64,000 nt of DNA from Dietzia alimentaria 72. GTDB taxonomy: Bacteria; Actinomycetota; Actinomycetes; Mycobacteriales; Mycobacteriaceae. The stretch's first letter is position 1; each line of letters starts with the position of its first letter. The stretch covers positions 186,001 to 250,000 of the forward strand of contig NZ_AGFF01000024.1 of assembly GCF_000226215.1 (NCBI RefSeq), in the 5' to 3' direction. Shown here piece by piece: positions 4,648 to 39,708 of this stretch. Below the pieces are notes generated by a model. It saw nothing but the letters and a program-made list of their open reading frames with translations. It had not been told where the DNA came from and did no database searches. The translations under genes were made by a program, and so were the position numbers.

Positions 4648-4700
4648 CCGACCGTGGCCGGTGCGCACGGTCGCCGGCCGCGGTGGCAGGATCGCCTACC

Positions 4701-5741
4701 GTGACAATCATCGCCGCAGCGGACGGCTCCGCCCTCGGAAACCCCGGCCCCGCGGGCTGGGCCTGGTACATCGACGATTCCCGGTGGCGCTGCGGCGGCT
4801 GGAAGCGCGGCACCAACAACCAGGGCGAGCTGACTGCCGTGCTGGACCTGTTGCGTCAGACCGCGCACGTTCCGGAGCCGCTGCACATCCTGTGCGATTC
4901 GCAGTACGTCATCAATTCAGTCACCAAGTGGATGGCGGGCTGGAAGCGCAAGGGCTGGAAGAAGGCCGACGGCAAGCCGGTGCTCAACGTCGAGGTGATG
5001 AAGGCCCTCGACGCCGCGATGCAGGGCCGGCAGGTCACCTTCGAGTGGGTGAAGGGCCACGCCGGCCACGAGCTCAACGAGAAGGCCGACGTTCTGGCCA
5101 ACGGTGCCGCCAAGGCCCACGCGTCCAAGCAACTACCTAAAGCCGGCCCGGGATTTCCGGGCGCCACCGCGGTGGGCGCGGGCGAGGATCCTTCGGTGCC
5201 GCCGGCCGCCGATGGTGCGGGCGGGTCTGCTCCCGCAGCCGACGGCGCGCGACCCTCCCGAGCACGGTCATCGACCACAACGACGACAACGCCCGCATCC
5301 TCCGACCAGCCCGACCTGTTCTCGCTGGACGCGGACACCTCTGACCGGTACGCCAACGCTGACGATGGCGCCTCCCCGGCCAGCCCTGCTGTCCCGGCCA
5401 GCCAGGCCGACGAGGATCTCGTCGTCGACCTGGAACGCTCGCTTCTGACCGATGCGGTTCGCCGGGACCGTAAACAGCTCACGCGGCTGCTCGACGTGCG
5501 GTGGCGTCAGGTCGATGCCACGGGCCGCACGTGGACCCGCCGCGAGATTTCCGACACCGGCTCATCGCACGCGGGCGTGAAGCTCGAGGTGCTGGAGACG
5601 CGGAGACTGTCGAACGACGTGATCTTGCTGCTGTGGCGCGCGAGCGGCCCTGACGGGGTGTCGTCGCTGCGCAGCTCGATCTGGCAGCGCACAGGCGACG
5701 ACTGGAAGCAGACATTCCAGCAGGGCACCCGCGAACCCTGA
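4701..5741 (+). CDS. RNase HI fused to a C-terminal DUF4440-like domain
   Basis: Residues 1-140 form a complete ribonuclease HI domain, which degrades RNA in RNA:DNA hybrids. The catalytic acidic residues are visible as Asp8, Glu43, Asp66 and Asp130, with the loop histidine His120 (KGHAGHE). A basic protrusion (WKRKGWKKADGK) is present. A low-complexity linker of roughly 90 residues rich in Ala, Pro, Ser and Thr follows. The C-terminal 100 residues look like an NTF2-fold DUF4440 domain (from DAVRRDRKQLTRLL through SSIWQRTGDDW). I favour the GTG at 4701, with AGGA upstream, over the GTG at 4683. The partner domain's role is unknown. Confidence 0.82.
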   Translation: MTIIAAADGSALGNPGPAGWAWYIDDSRWRCGGWKRGTNNQGELTAVLDLLRQTAHVPEPLHILCDSQYVINSVTKWMAGWKRKGWKKADGKPVLNVEVMKALDAAMQGRQVTFEWVKGHAGHELNEKADVLANGAAKAHASKQLPKAGPGFPGATAVGAGEDPSVPPAADGAGGSAPAADGARPSRARSSTTTTTTPASSDQPDLFSLDADTSDRYANADDGASPASPAVPASQADEDLVVDLERSLLTDAVRRDRKQLTRLLDVRWRQVDATGRTWTRREISDTGSSHAGVKLEVLETRRLSNDVILLLWRASGPDGVSSLRSSIWQRTGDDWKQTFQQGTREP

Positions 5742-5845
5742 TCTGCCCCCGCCGCCGCTGCCCCCGTTACCGCCGCCGGTTGGCGGACACCCACTCGCAC
5801 CAGGCGGACATTCAGTGCGAAATCCAGCCCGCTATCGAACATCCT

Positions 5846-5910
5846 GTCCGCCAACCGGGGAGCCACGTCCGCCAACCGGGGGGAGCCACGTCCGCCAACC
5901 GGGGAGCCAC
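5846..5910. repeat. Three tandem copies of a 21-23 bp unit
   Basis: Units start at 5846, 5867 and 5890; each reads GTCCGCCAACCGGGG followed by AGCCAC, the middle copy having two extra G residues. A degenerate fourth copy starts at 5911. The 13-base core GTCCGCCAACCGG occurs in inverted orientation at 5776-5788, so any of the three copies could pair with it to form a stem. Confidence 0.85.
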
Positions 5911-5982
5911 GTCCGCCACGTGGGCACCCACGGCCAATCGCTGCGCTGACGGCCGCCCTGATGCGATCGCCCACGCCGCCGC

Positions 5983-6050
5983 CAGCCGCGCCGTCCAGAA
6001 TCATCCGGCCCTGAAAAATCGCGGGCGGGTGACTCTGGACGGCGCGGCTG
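5983..6050. repeat. Long hairpin, copy 1 of a dispersed structured repeat
   Basis: A perfect 17-bp stem (5983-5999 with 6034-6050) is extended inward by an imperfect stem (TCATCCG against CGGGTGA). The same architecture and much of the same sequence recur at 37833-37894. It lies 24 nt beyond the 3' end of trpS, so it may also act as a terminator for one or both convergent genes. Confidence 0.85.
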
Positions 6051-6072: not shown

Positions 6073-7212
<1,140 letters not shown>

Positions 7213-14147: not shown

Positions 14148-14255
14148 CCAGGTCATGAGTGCCAGCGACAAGCCCCGGCTCGCTGGACGGCAACCCTCCT
14201 CCGCGGTGGGGTGCCCCGGGAGACGACCTGGCCGACACCCGACCGGGTGAGAGGC
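14148..14255 (+). promoter_or_regulatory. SAM-IV riboswitch
   Basis: Senses S-adenosylmethionine and represses methionine biosynthesis. The closing helix CCAGGTC (14148-14154) pairs with GACCTGG (14225-14231). Inside are the conserved TCATGAGTGCCAGCG, a hairpin CCAGCG/CGCTGG (14162-14167, 14181-14186), and the CGGCAACCCTCC and GCGGTGGGGTGCCCC segments diagnostic of SAM-IV aptamers. A further segment 3' of the closing helix (GACCGGGTGAGAGGCAAGC) fits the extra peripheral helix and pseudoknot of this class. It lies upstream of metY, as for the mycobacterial SAM-IV element. Confidence 0.93.
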
Positions 14256-14261
14256 AAGCGC

Positions 14262-14291
14262 GGGTCCGCTGACGTTGTAGCGGGCGGACCC
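14262..14291 (+). terminator. Hairpin between SAM-IV aptamer and metY
   Basis: GGGTCCGC (14262-14269) pairs with GCGGACCC (14284-14291), followed by TTCT. It may be the expression platform (a terminator) or a spacer helix. A second small hairpin directly over the ribosome site (14306-14318) competes as the expression platform. Confidence 0.5.
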
Positions 14292-36233: not shown

Positions 36234-37421
36234 ATGAGCGGCGACGATGAGTCCATGACCGAAACACAGCCCCACGGCATCCAGTCCAACCTCCGCGAGA
36301 TGTGGCGGACCCGTCCCGTCCGGACCCCGGACGATTCCAAGATCGCCGGCGTCTGCGGCGGGTTCGGCCGTCGCTACGGCGTCGACCCGGTCCTATTCCG
36401 CGTCGCGTTTGTCGTCACCGCGCTGTGGGGTGGGGCGGGAGTGTTCCTCTACGCCCTGATGTGGCTGCTCCTGCGTTCCGCCGGGGACGAGGCCTCCTCG
36501 GGAGAAGCGCTCATCGGGAAAGGCCGGGCGTCGGGCTCCAAGGTCACCGCGGTGATCCTCGTCGTCGTCGTCCTCCTGTCCGCCCCCACCATCGGCGGGT
36601 CGGGAGAGTCCCTCGTCGTGGGCGTGGGGTTCCTCCTGACCGCGGCGATGCTCGCCGGCTGGTACGGCCTGTACCGACGCACCCCGCAGCCACCCGCCGG
36701 ATGGATGGAGGTCTCGTCGGTGCCGCCCTCCTCTTCGTCCGGCGCCAACGCTCCCTTCAGTTCCCCGGTGCCACCCTCGTGGGACCCGCTCGGCGCCGCG
36801 CCGTTCGCGTGGGATCTGCCCGAACCCGGTGCCGCCCCCTCGCCGGTCGCACCCGCCCGGCCCCGGTCGAGATTGACCACAGTCACGCTCGGGCTGGCGC
36901 TCATCTCGGTCGCGGTCTCCATCGGTCTGTCCAGGCTGGGTGGCTTCACCTGGCTCGACGCCACGCGGATCGCCGCCCTCGCCCTCGCCGTGGTGGCCGG
37001 AGGCCTGCTCGTCGGCGCGATCACCCGCCGCGGCCACGGCCTCCTGGTGGTGGCCGGCCCCCTCGCCGGGTTCGTGCTGCTGGCCTCACTCATCCAGGTG
37101 CCCGCTGGCGGCTGGGAGAACATCGGCGAGAAGCGCGTGGAGATCACCGTCCCCGCCCAACTGGAGGCCCCGATCGTTCACGAGATCGGCACCGTGACCG
37201 TGGACATGAGCACACTCGAACTCGACCGTGACCGCACCTACCGCATCTCCAACGAGGTCGGTGACGTGCGCGTGACGCTGCCTGACGGGCTCGCCGTGGA
37301 CGCGACCTGCCGGACCGAAATAGGCGACGTCGACTGTCCCGACCCGGCTGACAACCCCGTCGGCCCGGTGCTGACCCTGGACATCGCCAACGAAATGGGA
37401 AGCGTGAAGGTGACCCGATGA
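36234..37421 (+). CDS. PspC-domain membrane protein with C-terminal LiaF-like domain (EsrI-like)
   Basis: A 395-residue membrane protein. It has a cytoplasmic N-terminus, a PspC domain (about 25-80, DDSKIAGVCGGFGRRYG then VFLYALMWLLL), two more hydrophobic segments, a Pro/Ser-rich loop, and further helices (about 205-290). The C-terminal 100 residues, VEITVPAQLEAPIVHEIGTV onward, resemble the beta-rich LiaF/DUF2154-type domain. It may hold the envelope-stress kinase inactive, as proposed for C. glutamicum EsrI. The ATG at 36234 has GGAG 7 nt upstream. It overlaps the next gene by ATGA. Confidence 0.82.
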   Translation: MSGDDESMTETQPHGIQSNLREMWRTRPVRTPDDSKIAGVCGGFGRRYGVDPVLFRVAFVVTALWGGAGVFLYALMWLLLRSAGDEASSGEALIGKGRASGSKVTAVILVVVVLLSAPTIGGSGESLVVGVGFLLTAAMLAGWYGLYRRTPQPPAGWMEVSSVPPSSSSGANAPFSSPVPPSWDPLGAAPFAWDLPEPGAAPSPVAPARPRSRLTTVTLGLALISVAVSIGLSRLGGFTWLDATRIAALALAVVAGGLLVGAITRRGHGLLVVAGPLAGFVLLASLIQVPAGGWENIGEKRVEITVPAQLEAPIVHEIGTVTVDMSTLELDRDRTYRISNEVGDVRVTLPDGLAVDATCRTEIGDVDCPDPADNPVGPVLTLDIANEMGSVKVTR

Positions 37422-37744
37422 CCACGAATATTCCGCCGACAGACGGCTACGACGACCCGCCCGCCCAGCCCGAACAGCGGCTCTACGCCCCGCTGCCGTA
37501 CGGCACCGGCTTCTCCACCACGGACTTCGGTGTGGTTCCAGAGACCGCGGTCCCAAGCGTCACGGTGGAGCCGCACGAACAGCGCAGGTCCGGATCCCCG
37601 GTCCTGGCCGTTGCCGGGCTCGCCTCCCTCGCAGTGGCCGTATGGGCCATCCTCGGCGCACCAGTCATCCCGCAGATGGCCCTGCTGGCCGCCGGGCTGG
37701 TCCTGACCGTCCTCGTGGGGCTGGTCATGGTGATCCGTCGCTGA
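37418..37744 (+). CDS. Small two-helix membrane protein in the PspC operon
   Basis: A 108-residue protein. The hydrophilic, Pro-rich N-terminal 58 residues are followed by two predicted membrane helices (PVLAVAGLASLAVAVWAILG and MALLAAGLVLTVLVGLVMVI) and a terminal Arg-Arg. No named family is recognised. It is translationally coupled to the PspC/LiaF-like gene by an ATGA overlap, so it probably belongs to the same envelope-stress module. Confidence 0.75.
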   Translation: MTTNIPPTDGYDDPPAQPEQRLYAPLPYGTGFSTTDFGVVPETAVPSVTVEPHEQRRSGSPVLAVAGLASLAVAVWAILGAPVIPQMALLAAGLVLTVLVGLVMVIRR

Positions 37745-37832
37745 CCGGGCCGTGCGCGACCAGCAAGACGCAGGTCGCCCCGGCGGCTCAGGGACCCAGT
37801 GGCTCAGGGACTCAGGGACTCAGAACAGACAC

Positions 37833-37894
37833 CCGCGCCGCTCAGAGTCATCCTCACCCGATATATCGCGGGCGGATGATTCTGAGCGGCGCGG
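37833..37894. repeat. Long hairpin, copy 2 of the dispersed structured repeat
   Basis: A perfect 14-bp stem (CCGCGCCGCTCAGA, 37833-37846, with 37881-37894) is extended, after one mismatch, by TCATCC/GGATGA. The loop side keeps ATCGCGGGCGG as in the copy at 5983-6050. It lies between convergent genes (the membrane protein ending at 37744 and guaA ending at 37951). Just before it are short CTCAGGGA repeats (37786-37821). Confidence 0.85.
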
Positions 37895-37950
37895 CTGTGG
37901 CCTGCGGCGTGCGGGCTGTGGCGTGTGGCCCCTGGCCTAGACGGGAGCCG

Positions 37951-39555
37951 TCACTCCCACTCGATGGTCCCCGGCGGCTTGCTGGTCACGTCCAGCACGA
38001 CGCGGTTGACGTCTGGCACCTCGTTGGTGATGCGGTTTGAGATCAGCGCGAGCGTCTCGAACGGCACGCGGGTCCAGTCGGCGGTCATAGCGTCCTCGGA
38101 ACTGACCGGACGCAACACGATCGGATGACCGTAGGTACGCCCGTCGCCCTGCACACCCACCGAACGCACGTCCGCCAGCAGCACCACCGGGCACTGCCAC
38201 ACGATCCCGTCAAGGCCCGCGGCCGTCATCTCCTCGCGCACGATCGCATCTGCCGCGCGCAGGGTGTCCAGCCGGTCCTTGGAAACGGCTCCGACGATGC
38301 GGATCGCCAGACCCGGACCCGGGAAAGGATGCCGGCCGACGATCTCCTCGGGCAGGCCGAGCTCGCGCCCCACTGCGCGGACCTCGTCCTTGAACAGCAG
38401 TCGCAGCGGTTCGACGAGAGAGAACTCGATGTCGTCCGGCAGTCCGCCCACGTTGTGGTGGCTCTTGATGTTGGCCGTACCGGCACCACCGCCGGACTCC
38501 ACGACGTCCGGGTACAGGGTGCCCTGCACCAGGAAGTCCACGGAGGCGGCATCATCGCCCTGCAGCTCGAGCGCCTGGGTGACGGCTCGCTCGAAAGAGC
38601 GGATGAACTCGCGACCGATGATCTTGCGCTTGGCCTCCGGATCCGTGACCCCGGCGAGGTGGCCGAGGTAGGTCTCCGAATCGTCCAGCGTGATGAGCCG
38701 TGCGCCGGTGGCGGCCACGAAGTCGTTCTCCACCTGCTCGCGCTCGCCGGCCCGGAGCAGACCGTGATCGACGAACACACAGGTGAGCCGGTCGCCGATA
38801 GCCTTCTGGACCAGCGCCGCAGCGACGGCCGAATCCACGCCGCCGGACAGTCCGCAGATCGCACGCCCCTCGCCGATCTGCTCGCGGACGGCGTCGATGA
38901 GCTGGTCGGCGATATTAGCGGCGGTCCACGTCGGCTCGAGTCCTGCGACCTCGGTGAGGAACCGGGTGAGCACCTGCTGTCCGTGCGGCGAGTGCAGGAC
39001 CTCGGGGTGGTACTGCACGCCGGCCATCCGACGCTCAACGCACTCAAAGGCCGCTACCGGCGCACCGGCGGAGGAGGCGGTGACCGCGAAGCCCTCAGGC
39101 GCGGAGGTGACGGCGTCGCCGTGACTCATCCACACCGGATGAGACCCGGGCAGCCCCGCATGCAACAAGCCACCGGACACGGTCATATCGGTGCGTCCGT
39201 ACTCGCGGTTACCGGTCTGTTCGACCGCGCCGCCCAGCGCACCCGCCATCGTCTGGAAGCCGTAACAGATGCCGAACACCGGCAGTCCGAGCTCGAGCAC
39301 CGCCGGATCGAAGACCGGCGCATCCTCGGCGTATACGCTGGCCGGCCCGCCGGACAGGATCAGAGCCACCGGGTCTTTGGCGCGGATCTCCTCCACCGTC
39401 GCGGTGTGCGGGATCACCTCCGAGTAGACCCGGGCCTCGCGCACCCGTCTCGCGATGAGCTGCGCGTACTGGGCACCGAAGTCGATGACGAGCACGGGGC
39501 GCGGTGCCGCCGCCTCAGCGGTGATCTGGGAGTCGTTCTGTGCGTTCTCGGCCAC
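37951..39555 (-). CDS. guaA: GMP synthase (glutamine-hydrolysing)
   Basis: Converts XMP to GMP. The 534-residue protein has an N-terminal class I glutamine amidotransferase ([10 protein letters not shown]; Cys in [11 protein letters not shown]; His/Glu in QYHPEVLHS), an ATP pyrophosphatase domain with the P-loop [12 protein letters not shown], and the C-terminal GMPS dimerisation domain ending in [10 protein letters not shown] take the GTG at 39555 (AENAQNDSQ); a TAGAAT hexamer on the minus strand lies exactly 7 nt upstream, so the message may be leaderless and the longer frame to 39633 is untranslated. Confidence 0.95.
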
Positions 39556-39562
39556 GGCCCCG

Positions 39563-39568
39563 ATTCTA
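39563..39568 (-). promoter_or_regulatory. Candidate -10 box, leaderless guaA
   Basis: TAGAAT on the minus strand, 7 nt upstream of the GTG start of guaA; a good TANNNT match. Confidence 0.45.
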
Positions 39569-39708
39569 GGCCCCACTGCCGGTACGCCCGCCCCCGCCAC
39601 CATGCGGACCGTGCGATTCTTCTCCAAGGACACTTCGGAGACCTGCCCCGTCCACGGTGCTCATGAGGGACACTTCATCGGTAGACACCCGCTGAAGAGA
39701 GGCACCCG

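Follow-up and report, generated by a model that had tools for sequence, protein, structure and literature searches.

In the accessible text of earlier work, REP sequences are defined as palindromes of 20-40 bp, one end of which bears an unpaired tag, GTAG or CGTC (PMC3733652). In REPIN-RAYT systems, as described in the available parts of two reports, REP doublets occur together with a Y1 HUH transposase, and this partner is flanked by its own repeat (PMC3116915; PMC3733652). According to the same parts, REPtrons are repeat-specific and the phylogeny of the RAYT gene is largely congruent with that of the species (PMC3116915; PMC3733652). No linked transposase is reported for CGTC-tagged REPs in the accessible part of PMC3733652. 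High-GC Gram-positives are represented in the tables of two stem-loop surveys, in the portions at hand, only by Corynebacterium diphtheriae, Mycobacterium leprae and M. tuberculosis (PMC2267715, PMC1590033). Here we describe a dispersed palindromic repeat of Dietzia and a gene that it flanks. The two probably form a REPIN/RAYT-like pair, in which a PD-(D/E)xK-type predicted nuclease takes the place of the HUH transposase.

The window, that is the whole 64-kb stretch of DNA that was analysed, lies on contig C16 of a 3.35-Mb Dietzia genome (G000). A preliminary description of the window had claimed a structured repeat between two convergent genes and a second copy about 32 kb away, again between convergent genes. 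Both are present; the first is larger than had been described, and the second extends over 37830-37897. The features concerned are as follows.

4683..5741, plus strand: left-hand neighbour of copy 1, pointing towards it, called an RNase H fusion gene in the preliminary description (ORF and neighbour call)
5983..6050, plus strand: first palindrome copy (copy 1; 68 bp, type A), made of two inverted half-units of 34 bp each (alignment, arm pairing, covariance model, RNA fold)
6073..7167, minus strand: right-hand neighbour of copy 1, likewise pointing towards it, which we take by its sequence to be trpS (ORF; orthologs in relatives)
37418..37744, plus strand: small predicted gene to the left of copy 2, pointing towards it (home-made gene caller)
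37830..37897, plus strand: palindrome copy 2, type A, 68 bp (alignment, arm pairing, covariance model, RNA fold)
37951..39633, minus strand: right-hand neighbour of copy 2, likewise pointing towards it, presumably guaA by its sequence (orthologs in relatives)

Copy 1 occupies exactly 5983-6050, and 27 of the 34 positions of its 34-bp arms are complementary; the corresponding figure for copy 2 is 29 of 34. The layout of the palindrome is CAGCCGCGCC...GATATATC...GGCGCGGCTG, and nine copies from the genome, including these two, were aligned without gaps. Copies 1 and 2 are the strongest two palindromes of the window (scores 20 and 20; the next reach 15 and 13), and three Markov controls for the window contained 1, 0 and 0 palindromes with a score of at least 13. 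The RNA fold of copy 1 had −56.9 kcal/mol (z −10.9), and that of the opposite strand −57.3; across the folds the values on either strand were −51 to −57 kcal/mol and z from −8.5 to −11.7. Inspection of the sequence revealed no T-run or U-tract on the 3' side of either window copy. The short box ATCGCGGGCGG is by itself uninformative (9 matches with one mismatch allowed vs 7.7 expected). At Rfam gathering thresholds the only match in the window was an ordinary SAM-IV riboswitch at 14151-14266. Another repeat, GGTTGGCGGACA...TGTCCGCCAACC with tandem GTCCGCCAACCGGGGAGCCAC units, was observed beside copy 1 at about 5775-5925.

A covariance model built from nine copies located 11 copies in G000 at E ≤ 1e-4. 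Nine of the 11 match by construction, and these copies had already been recovered with copy 2 alone as query; a twelfth place (C28:15412, E 1.07) was left out. E-values of the model are rough; values near 1e-14 were obtained. The genome-wide palindromic family surmised from two copies is thus borne out by 11, and no existing name for it was found. The type A model matched seven of 61 genomes at E ≤ 0.01, with 11 places in G000 itself, 7 in G017, 4 in G001, one each in G013, G016 and G018, and 2 in G035, which belongs to another genus. With a pattern built on the termini, CAGCCGCRC/GYGCGGCTG, further palindromes that differ in their interiors were found in Dietzia, G035 and G036; the termini are conserved and the interiors are lineage-specific. 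Four types were distinguished: A (68 bp, GATATATC centre), A2 (68 bp, CTGCAGCCGC), B (70 bp, GGCGTCTCGC) and C (70 bp, GATGAACTC).

In one search the pattern of the termini gave 7 matches in G000 vs 2 for the backward control, and the control was equal or higher in many genomes; in another the backward control exceeded the raw count in all 23 Dietzia genomes. Raw pattern counts are therefore no evidence, and palindromy marks the true copies. The pattern matched in 69 of 301 genomes, and among the matches listed, those outside Dietzia, G035 and G036 were non-palindromic by eye. The distribution of the family is patchy. Type A and B patterns had no match in viral contigs, and copy 2 had none in the plasmid collection at E ≤ 0.01. 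Further dispersed near-perfect palindromes, for example around TCCAGAATGACCCGTGACGTGCG, were noticed in several contigs of G035 (L231-L238). In G015, a unit of about 6.3 kb is tandemly repeated many times (C1:361145-389627, C3 and C4), with one boundary near a type B palindrome.

The arms are nearly interchangeable among the copies of a genome, so that a full element is in the main two inverted half-units taken from a single genome-wide pool. In four genomes a left arm was about as similar to the right arm of another copy as to its own. Arm similarity within vs between copies was 0.778 vs 0.764 in G000 (P 0.21), 0.883 vs 0.857 in G001 (P 0.08), 0.799 vs 0.795 in G017 (P 0.47) and 0.898 vs 0.854 in G013 (P 0.09). 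The test stratified over the four genomes, without L071, L191 and L192 (one per genome), gave P 0.038, a slight excess of matched arms. Across species, covariation of paired positions was strong (28 copies; score 0.350 vs 0.130, reached by 0 of 500 shuffles). Within a genome, the covariation score was reached by 323 of 500 shuffles for the 21 type B copies of G011 and by 51 of 500 for nine type A copies of G000. Selection for the own pairing of each copy was considered and rejected, since within genomes type B shows no covariation and type A only weak covariation; for the same reason, a common pool that supplies both half-units is the better explanation for the covariation across species. Set A4 was used without L165 (69 bp), and set A5 consisted of the 28 copies minus L056, L057, L069, L072 and L073 (other length or weak), plus five from G002, G005 and G013. 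Some copies have tandem half-units alongside. At the end of C21 and the start of C20 in G000 (L010, L025), 22-bp tandem units bear the right end of the element, and the assembly breaks there.

The convergent setting of both window copies prevails in the family: 19 of 25 copies lie between convergent genes, 4 between co-directional and 2 between divergent ones, as compared with 12 convergent pairs among the 58 adjacent gene pairs of the window. For this count 28 copies were examined, and the weak L057 and two copies with one predicted neighbour were omitted; gene calls and orientations are approximate, as they come from a home-made gene caller trained on 1843 codons.

Several copies occupy orthologous sites across species, each species having its own interior there. 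Both flanks of the guaA copy are common to G000 and G018, and L056 has both flanks in common with G016. L054 and L063 have the rplA side and the partner gene described below in common. L049 has one flank in common with G017 and G013, and G013 carries at this site a quite different yet self-complementary stem. L051 and L068, with one flank in common and a 1.2-kb offset, are a weaker case of orthology. At the 3' end of trpS an A2-like copy was found in G013 and other hairpins or none in the remaining species. The 3' end of guaA likewise has different hairpins or none; by eye, ordinary-looking terminator hairpins replace the palindrome in some relatives (G005, G010), and nothing hairpin-like is seen in G003, G017 and G021. 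At the locus G005:2917199 the element is present in G002, G005 and G014 and missing in G003 and G020, which looks like loss, and no insertion event was observed. No target-site duplication was detected at the one locus where occupied and lacking sites were compared, in five genomes.

Two other observations concern the trpS 3' end. G016 and G001 have GTTGCAAGAC- boxes with TGTCTTGCAACC there, perhaps a further lineage-specific hairpin family. In G002, G003, G005, G007, G014, G015, G017 and G019 (L106, L111, L113, L115, L109, L119, L120 and L105) the region contains a conserved ORF of about 22 codons, MGLVAGLIGIVGDLLHLLLGGL and variants as translated by eye, with a terminator-like hairpin after it.

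In G000 and G017, two copies of the palindrome flank one gene beside what we take to be rplA. In G000 this partner gene lies outside the window, at C21:53696-54628, and encodes a protein of 311 aa. The protein combines an AbiEi-like module with a C-terminal region resembling DUF559/Vsr-like PD-(D/E)xK nucleases. PADLOC AbiEi models matched five of the six proteins scanned, at about residues 12-190, with the best E of 1e-15 in G000. In Pfam, AbiEi_4 matched 14 of 16 family members at E ≤ 0.1, and DUF559 matched 2. The best E in the family was 0.002 for DUF559 and 1.2e-6 for REase_MTES_1575, both below the Pfam cut-offs; the Arthrobacter protein had E 1.2e-6 for REase_MTES_1575 and 0.003 for DUF559, also below the cut-offs. 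Three of L269-L274 are annotated as DUF559 proteins. E201, D235, E245, D247 and K251 are invariant in 16 proteins and look like a PD-(D/E)xK site, which suggests a nuclease fold. The Collinsella protein matched no PADLOC AbiEi model, and neither it nor the Arthrobacter StoSoilB13 protein had an AbiEi match in Pfam; the AbiEi half is therefore established for Dietzia and, weakly, for Tsukamurella. An NCBIfam search with the partner protein gave nothing, and a PDB search gave no useful relative. An AbiEii gene was absent from the feature tables of the stretches inspected at 8 annotated test loci. The protein profile had no relative in viral contigs, the type B protein had none in phages, and no partner gene was seen around the G035 and G036 palindromes in the stretches examined, a small part of those genomes.

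A RAYT-type transposase had been proposed as mobiliser of the repeat. The Y1 domain (PF01797) was found in 0 of 23 Dietzia genomes at E ≤ 0.001, with 5 of 14 control genomes positive, and that proposal is not upheld, nor is membership of the REPtrons in the RAYT sense. The expectation of a linked mobilising gene may nevertheless be right in kind, the linked gene being the AbiEi/DUF559-type predicted nuclease outside the window and not a Y1 transposase. An IS200/IS605 tnpA gene was found in the same Collinsella stretch as the partner gene.

At E ≤ 1e-40, a protein search of 23 Dietzia genomes detected 13 loci, spread over 11 of them. G011 has no match at this cut-off and yet has a partner gene, beside a type B copy, which indicates that the cut-off hides genes; G001, G002 and G014 carry copies of the repeat and no gene at E ≤ 1e-40. 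Relatives of the protein came from Dietzia, Tsukamurella, Arthrobacter, Collinsella and Nonomuraea, and the loci outside the search comprised eight matches in the plasmid collection and six found via an Arthrobacter relative. The PLSDB 'plasmid' records L239-L241, L246, L271, L273 and L274 (Tsukamurella NCTC13231, Collinsella) contain housekeeping genes and look like chromosomal pieces.

Palindromes with a score of at least 12 were present on both sides at six of the 13 Dietzia loci vs 2 of 104 background genes and 0 of 45 trpS/guaA loci, and at three more of the 13 type A or B units were found on both sides by model or core match. Left and right flanks of 500 bp were then compared at E ≤ 1e-4, a threshold set after the first results had been seen. 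Similar flanks were found at 22 of 25 partner-gene loci (L251 barely), and L239, L249 and L272 failed. L054, L063 and L249 had been known beforehand from their repeats; 20 of the 22 loci found by protein alone passed. Some of the 25 loci are orthologous, leaving about 16 independent ones, of which 14 pass. Among the controls, such flanks were seen at none of the 51 genes of the window, at 1 of 104 genes from the surroundings of Dietzia elements (a background without L054 and L063) and at 1 of 45 trpS/guaA loci. In the Collinsella stretch, 29 of the 40 annotated genes were used, 11 being left out, and the one that passes is the test gene itself. Three of the eight plasmid-collection matches were canonical AbiEi genes, set aside as controls by their AbiEii neighbour; 0 of these 3 were flanked, and counting them as tests gives 22 of 28. 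The association of gene and repeat extends over four genera.

The protein tree contains a type A clade (G000, G017a), an A2 clade (G005a, G004, G017b) and a B clade (five proteins), each at 100/99; the G013 gene, which has an in-frame stop, was left out of A6 and of the tree. Palindrome type mostly follows protein clade, and G005 and G017 each have two paralogs with different palindrome types. There are two exceptions. G004 belongs to the A2 clade and its flanking palindromes have another interior, and the G018 gene, at the type A (rplA) locus, joins the A2 clade at 88/82 with a flank match of only 30 bp (E 6e-5). With a partner flanked by its own repeat type at 22 of 25 loci, and type following clade except in G004 and G018, the architecture is REPtron-like. 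The A2 and B clades have one common locus each, and G000, G017a and G018 share the rplA locus. The fact that gene loci are shared between the species of a clade makes the partner gene look inherited rather than mobile. The stop-containing gene of G013 (C1:1469211-1470134, L219) is accompanied by flanking palindromes, and dispersed copies also persist in that genome.

The flanking palindromes tested in four non-Dietzia genomes recur in those genomes, in counts that may include a palindrome once per strand. The Collinsella palindrome matched 30 places at E ≤ 10 in its own record and no other of 72,556 records, and a longer query matched 8 places at 1e-3; 13 stretches lie in one 50-kb piece and none in another. 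The flanking palindromes of Arthrobacter StoSoilB13 matched 22 and 20 places and that of Arthrobacter ERGS1:01 matched 13. In Tsukamurella one palindrome matched 20 places in 8 records of one strain, and a weaker case had 4. In Dietzia, the dispersed copies of G005 match the flanks of its A2 gene.

As far as the accessible text on REPIN-RAYT systems allows comparison, the likeness lies in the dispersed extragenic pairs of inverted half-units, a partner gene flanked by its own repeat type, a gene phylogeny that largely follows the species, genomes with several systems that each have their own repeat, and repeats that can stay where the gene is missing. The differences, judged on the same text, are that the Dietzia half-units were not seen to be palindromes themselves, that there is no GTAG tag, that the units are longer, at about 50-79 bp, and that the partner gene codes for a predicted nuclease of AbiEi plus DUF559/Vsr-like make-up, no Y1 gene having been found in the 23 Dietzia genomes. 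The preliminary description had called the repeat REP/BIME-like. This holds for the dispersed extragenic inverted-pair unit, with its 11 copies and nearly interchangeable arms; the repeat stands outside the GTAG and CGTC REP superfamilies, its 68-bp units (vs 20-40 bp) being paired to both ends with CAGCCGC/GCGGCTG termini. CGTC-tagged REPs, in the part of their description at hand, are also palindromic, intergenic and mostly between convergent or co-directional genes (PMC3733652), whereas the Dietzia repeats lack the unpaired CGTC tag, are longer and have a partner gene.

MITEs of DDE insertion sequences are similar in being non-coding and multicopy with terminal inverted repeats; unlike them, the Dietzia repeats are palindromic throughout, and neither a target-site duplication nor a parent IS was seen. 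Integron attC sites are likewise palindromes with variable interiors and conserved termini, and their core differs from the Dietzia termini. The AbiEi/AbiEii system shares the AbiEi-model match in the N-terminal half of the Dietzia proteins, but the partner protein has a C-terminal nuclease-like region, is repeat-flanked and has no AbiEii gene in the feature tables at 8 annotated loci. No report of an AbiEi-DUF559 gene linked to dispersed palindromes was found in the open-access literature, judged by title and start of abstract, and nothing on the subject came up there, in the parts of the texts accessible, for DUF559 together with AbiEi, inverted repeats or palindromes. The linkage points to a type of partner that is new for repeat families.

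We infer that the nuclease may mobilise the palindromes or drive their gene conversion. The partner protein would recognise the palindrome, whether as DNA or in the form of an extruded hairpin, and would cut or nick it. Repair of the break from another copy would spread the repeat and homogenise the copies, by gene conversion of half-elements and occasionally at new sites. Gene conversion fits both the species-specific interiors at old orthologous sites and the interchangeable arms. Copies would mostly survive where genes converge, the setting in which they are least harmful, and the long hairpin in the transcript may double as a two-way 3'-end or terminator element. A primary role in the transcript, as bidirectional terminators or stabilisers of 3' ends whose usefulness led to their being copied, with the nuclease gene merely lying between two of them, is an unlikely alternative to such a nuclease-linked pair. 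The convergent bias (19 of 25 copies vs 12 of 58 window pairs), the very stable hairpins on both strands and the ordinary-looking terminators seen by eye at the guaA 3' end in G005 and G010 agree with it. However, it does not account for the flanking of a single gene family across four genera when the control genes lack such flanks. If each copy's own pairing were maintained, covariation within a genome would be expected, but pairs did not clearly covary beyond shuffles (323 and 51 of 500); nothing hairpin-like was seen by eye at the guaA 3' end in G003, G017 and G021, and no T-run follows either window copy.

It is rather improbable that the repeats are MITE-like elements moved by an unrelated transposase with the AbiEi-DUF559 gene as cargo or neighbour: the patchy distribution and the conserved CAGCCGCRC/GYGCGGCTG termini around lineage-specific interiors would suit such elements, but the one locus compared had no target-site duplication, palindrome type mostly tracks protein clade, even where a genome has two paralogs, and the Y1 transposase was not found in 23 Dietzia genomes. 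The promoters of AbiEi antitoxin genes contain inverted repeats to which the antitoxins themselves bind, and AbiEi models match the N-terminal half of the Dietzia proteins, so the palindromes might be binding sites of an AbiEi-like regulator, as autoregulatory operators and a regulon. This is very unlikely, given that repeats also lie downstream of the gene, that only 2 of 25 dispersed copies are between divergent genes, that the three AbiEi genes with AbiEii nearby are not flanked, and that the nuclease-like region would have no role. A build-up of unrelated hairpins in long intergenic regions, by chance or at hot spots, would account for the other hairpins at the same 3' ends in relatives and for raw terminal-box counts no higher than the backward control; the model E near 1e-14, the gap-free alignment and the flank controls already contradict it, and it is scarcely credible. 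The pair of dispersed palindrome and predicted nuclease thus remains the reading we favour. More tentatively, and with some doubt, it could represent a widespread actinobacterial REPtron-like class, in which an AbiEi-PD-(D/E)xK nuclease drives its cognate long palindrome by cutting and subsequent copying through break repair, a gene-conversion drive on non-coding DNA without HUH or DDE transposases.

The only labels that DUF559 and orphan AbiEi-like genes have so far received are those of unknown-function domains or antitoxins. Should dispersed palindromes prove to be their partners, the DUF559/AbiEi-like family would gain a substrate. The REPIN/RAYT arrangement would then have arisen with another enzyme too, and high-GC bacteria would offer a testable system for the spread and concerted evolution of palindromic repeats.
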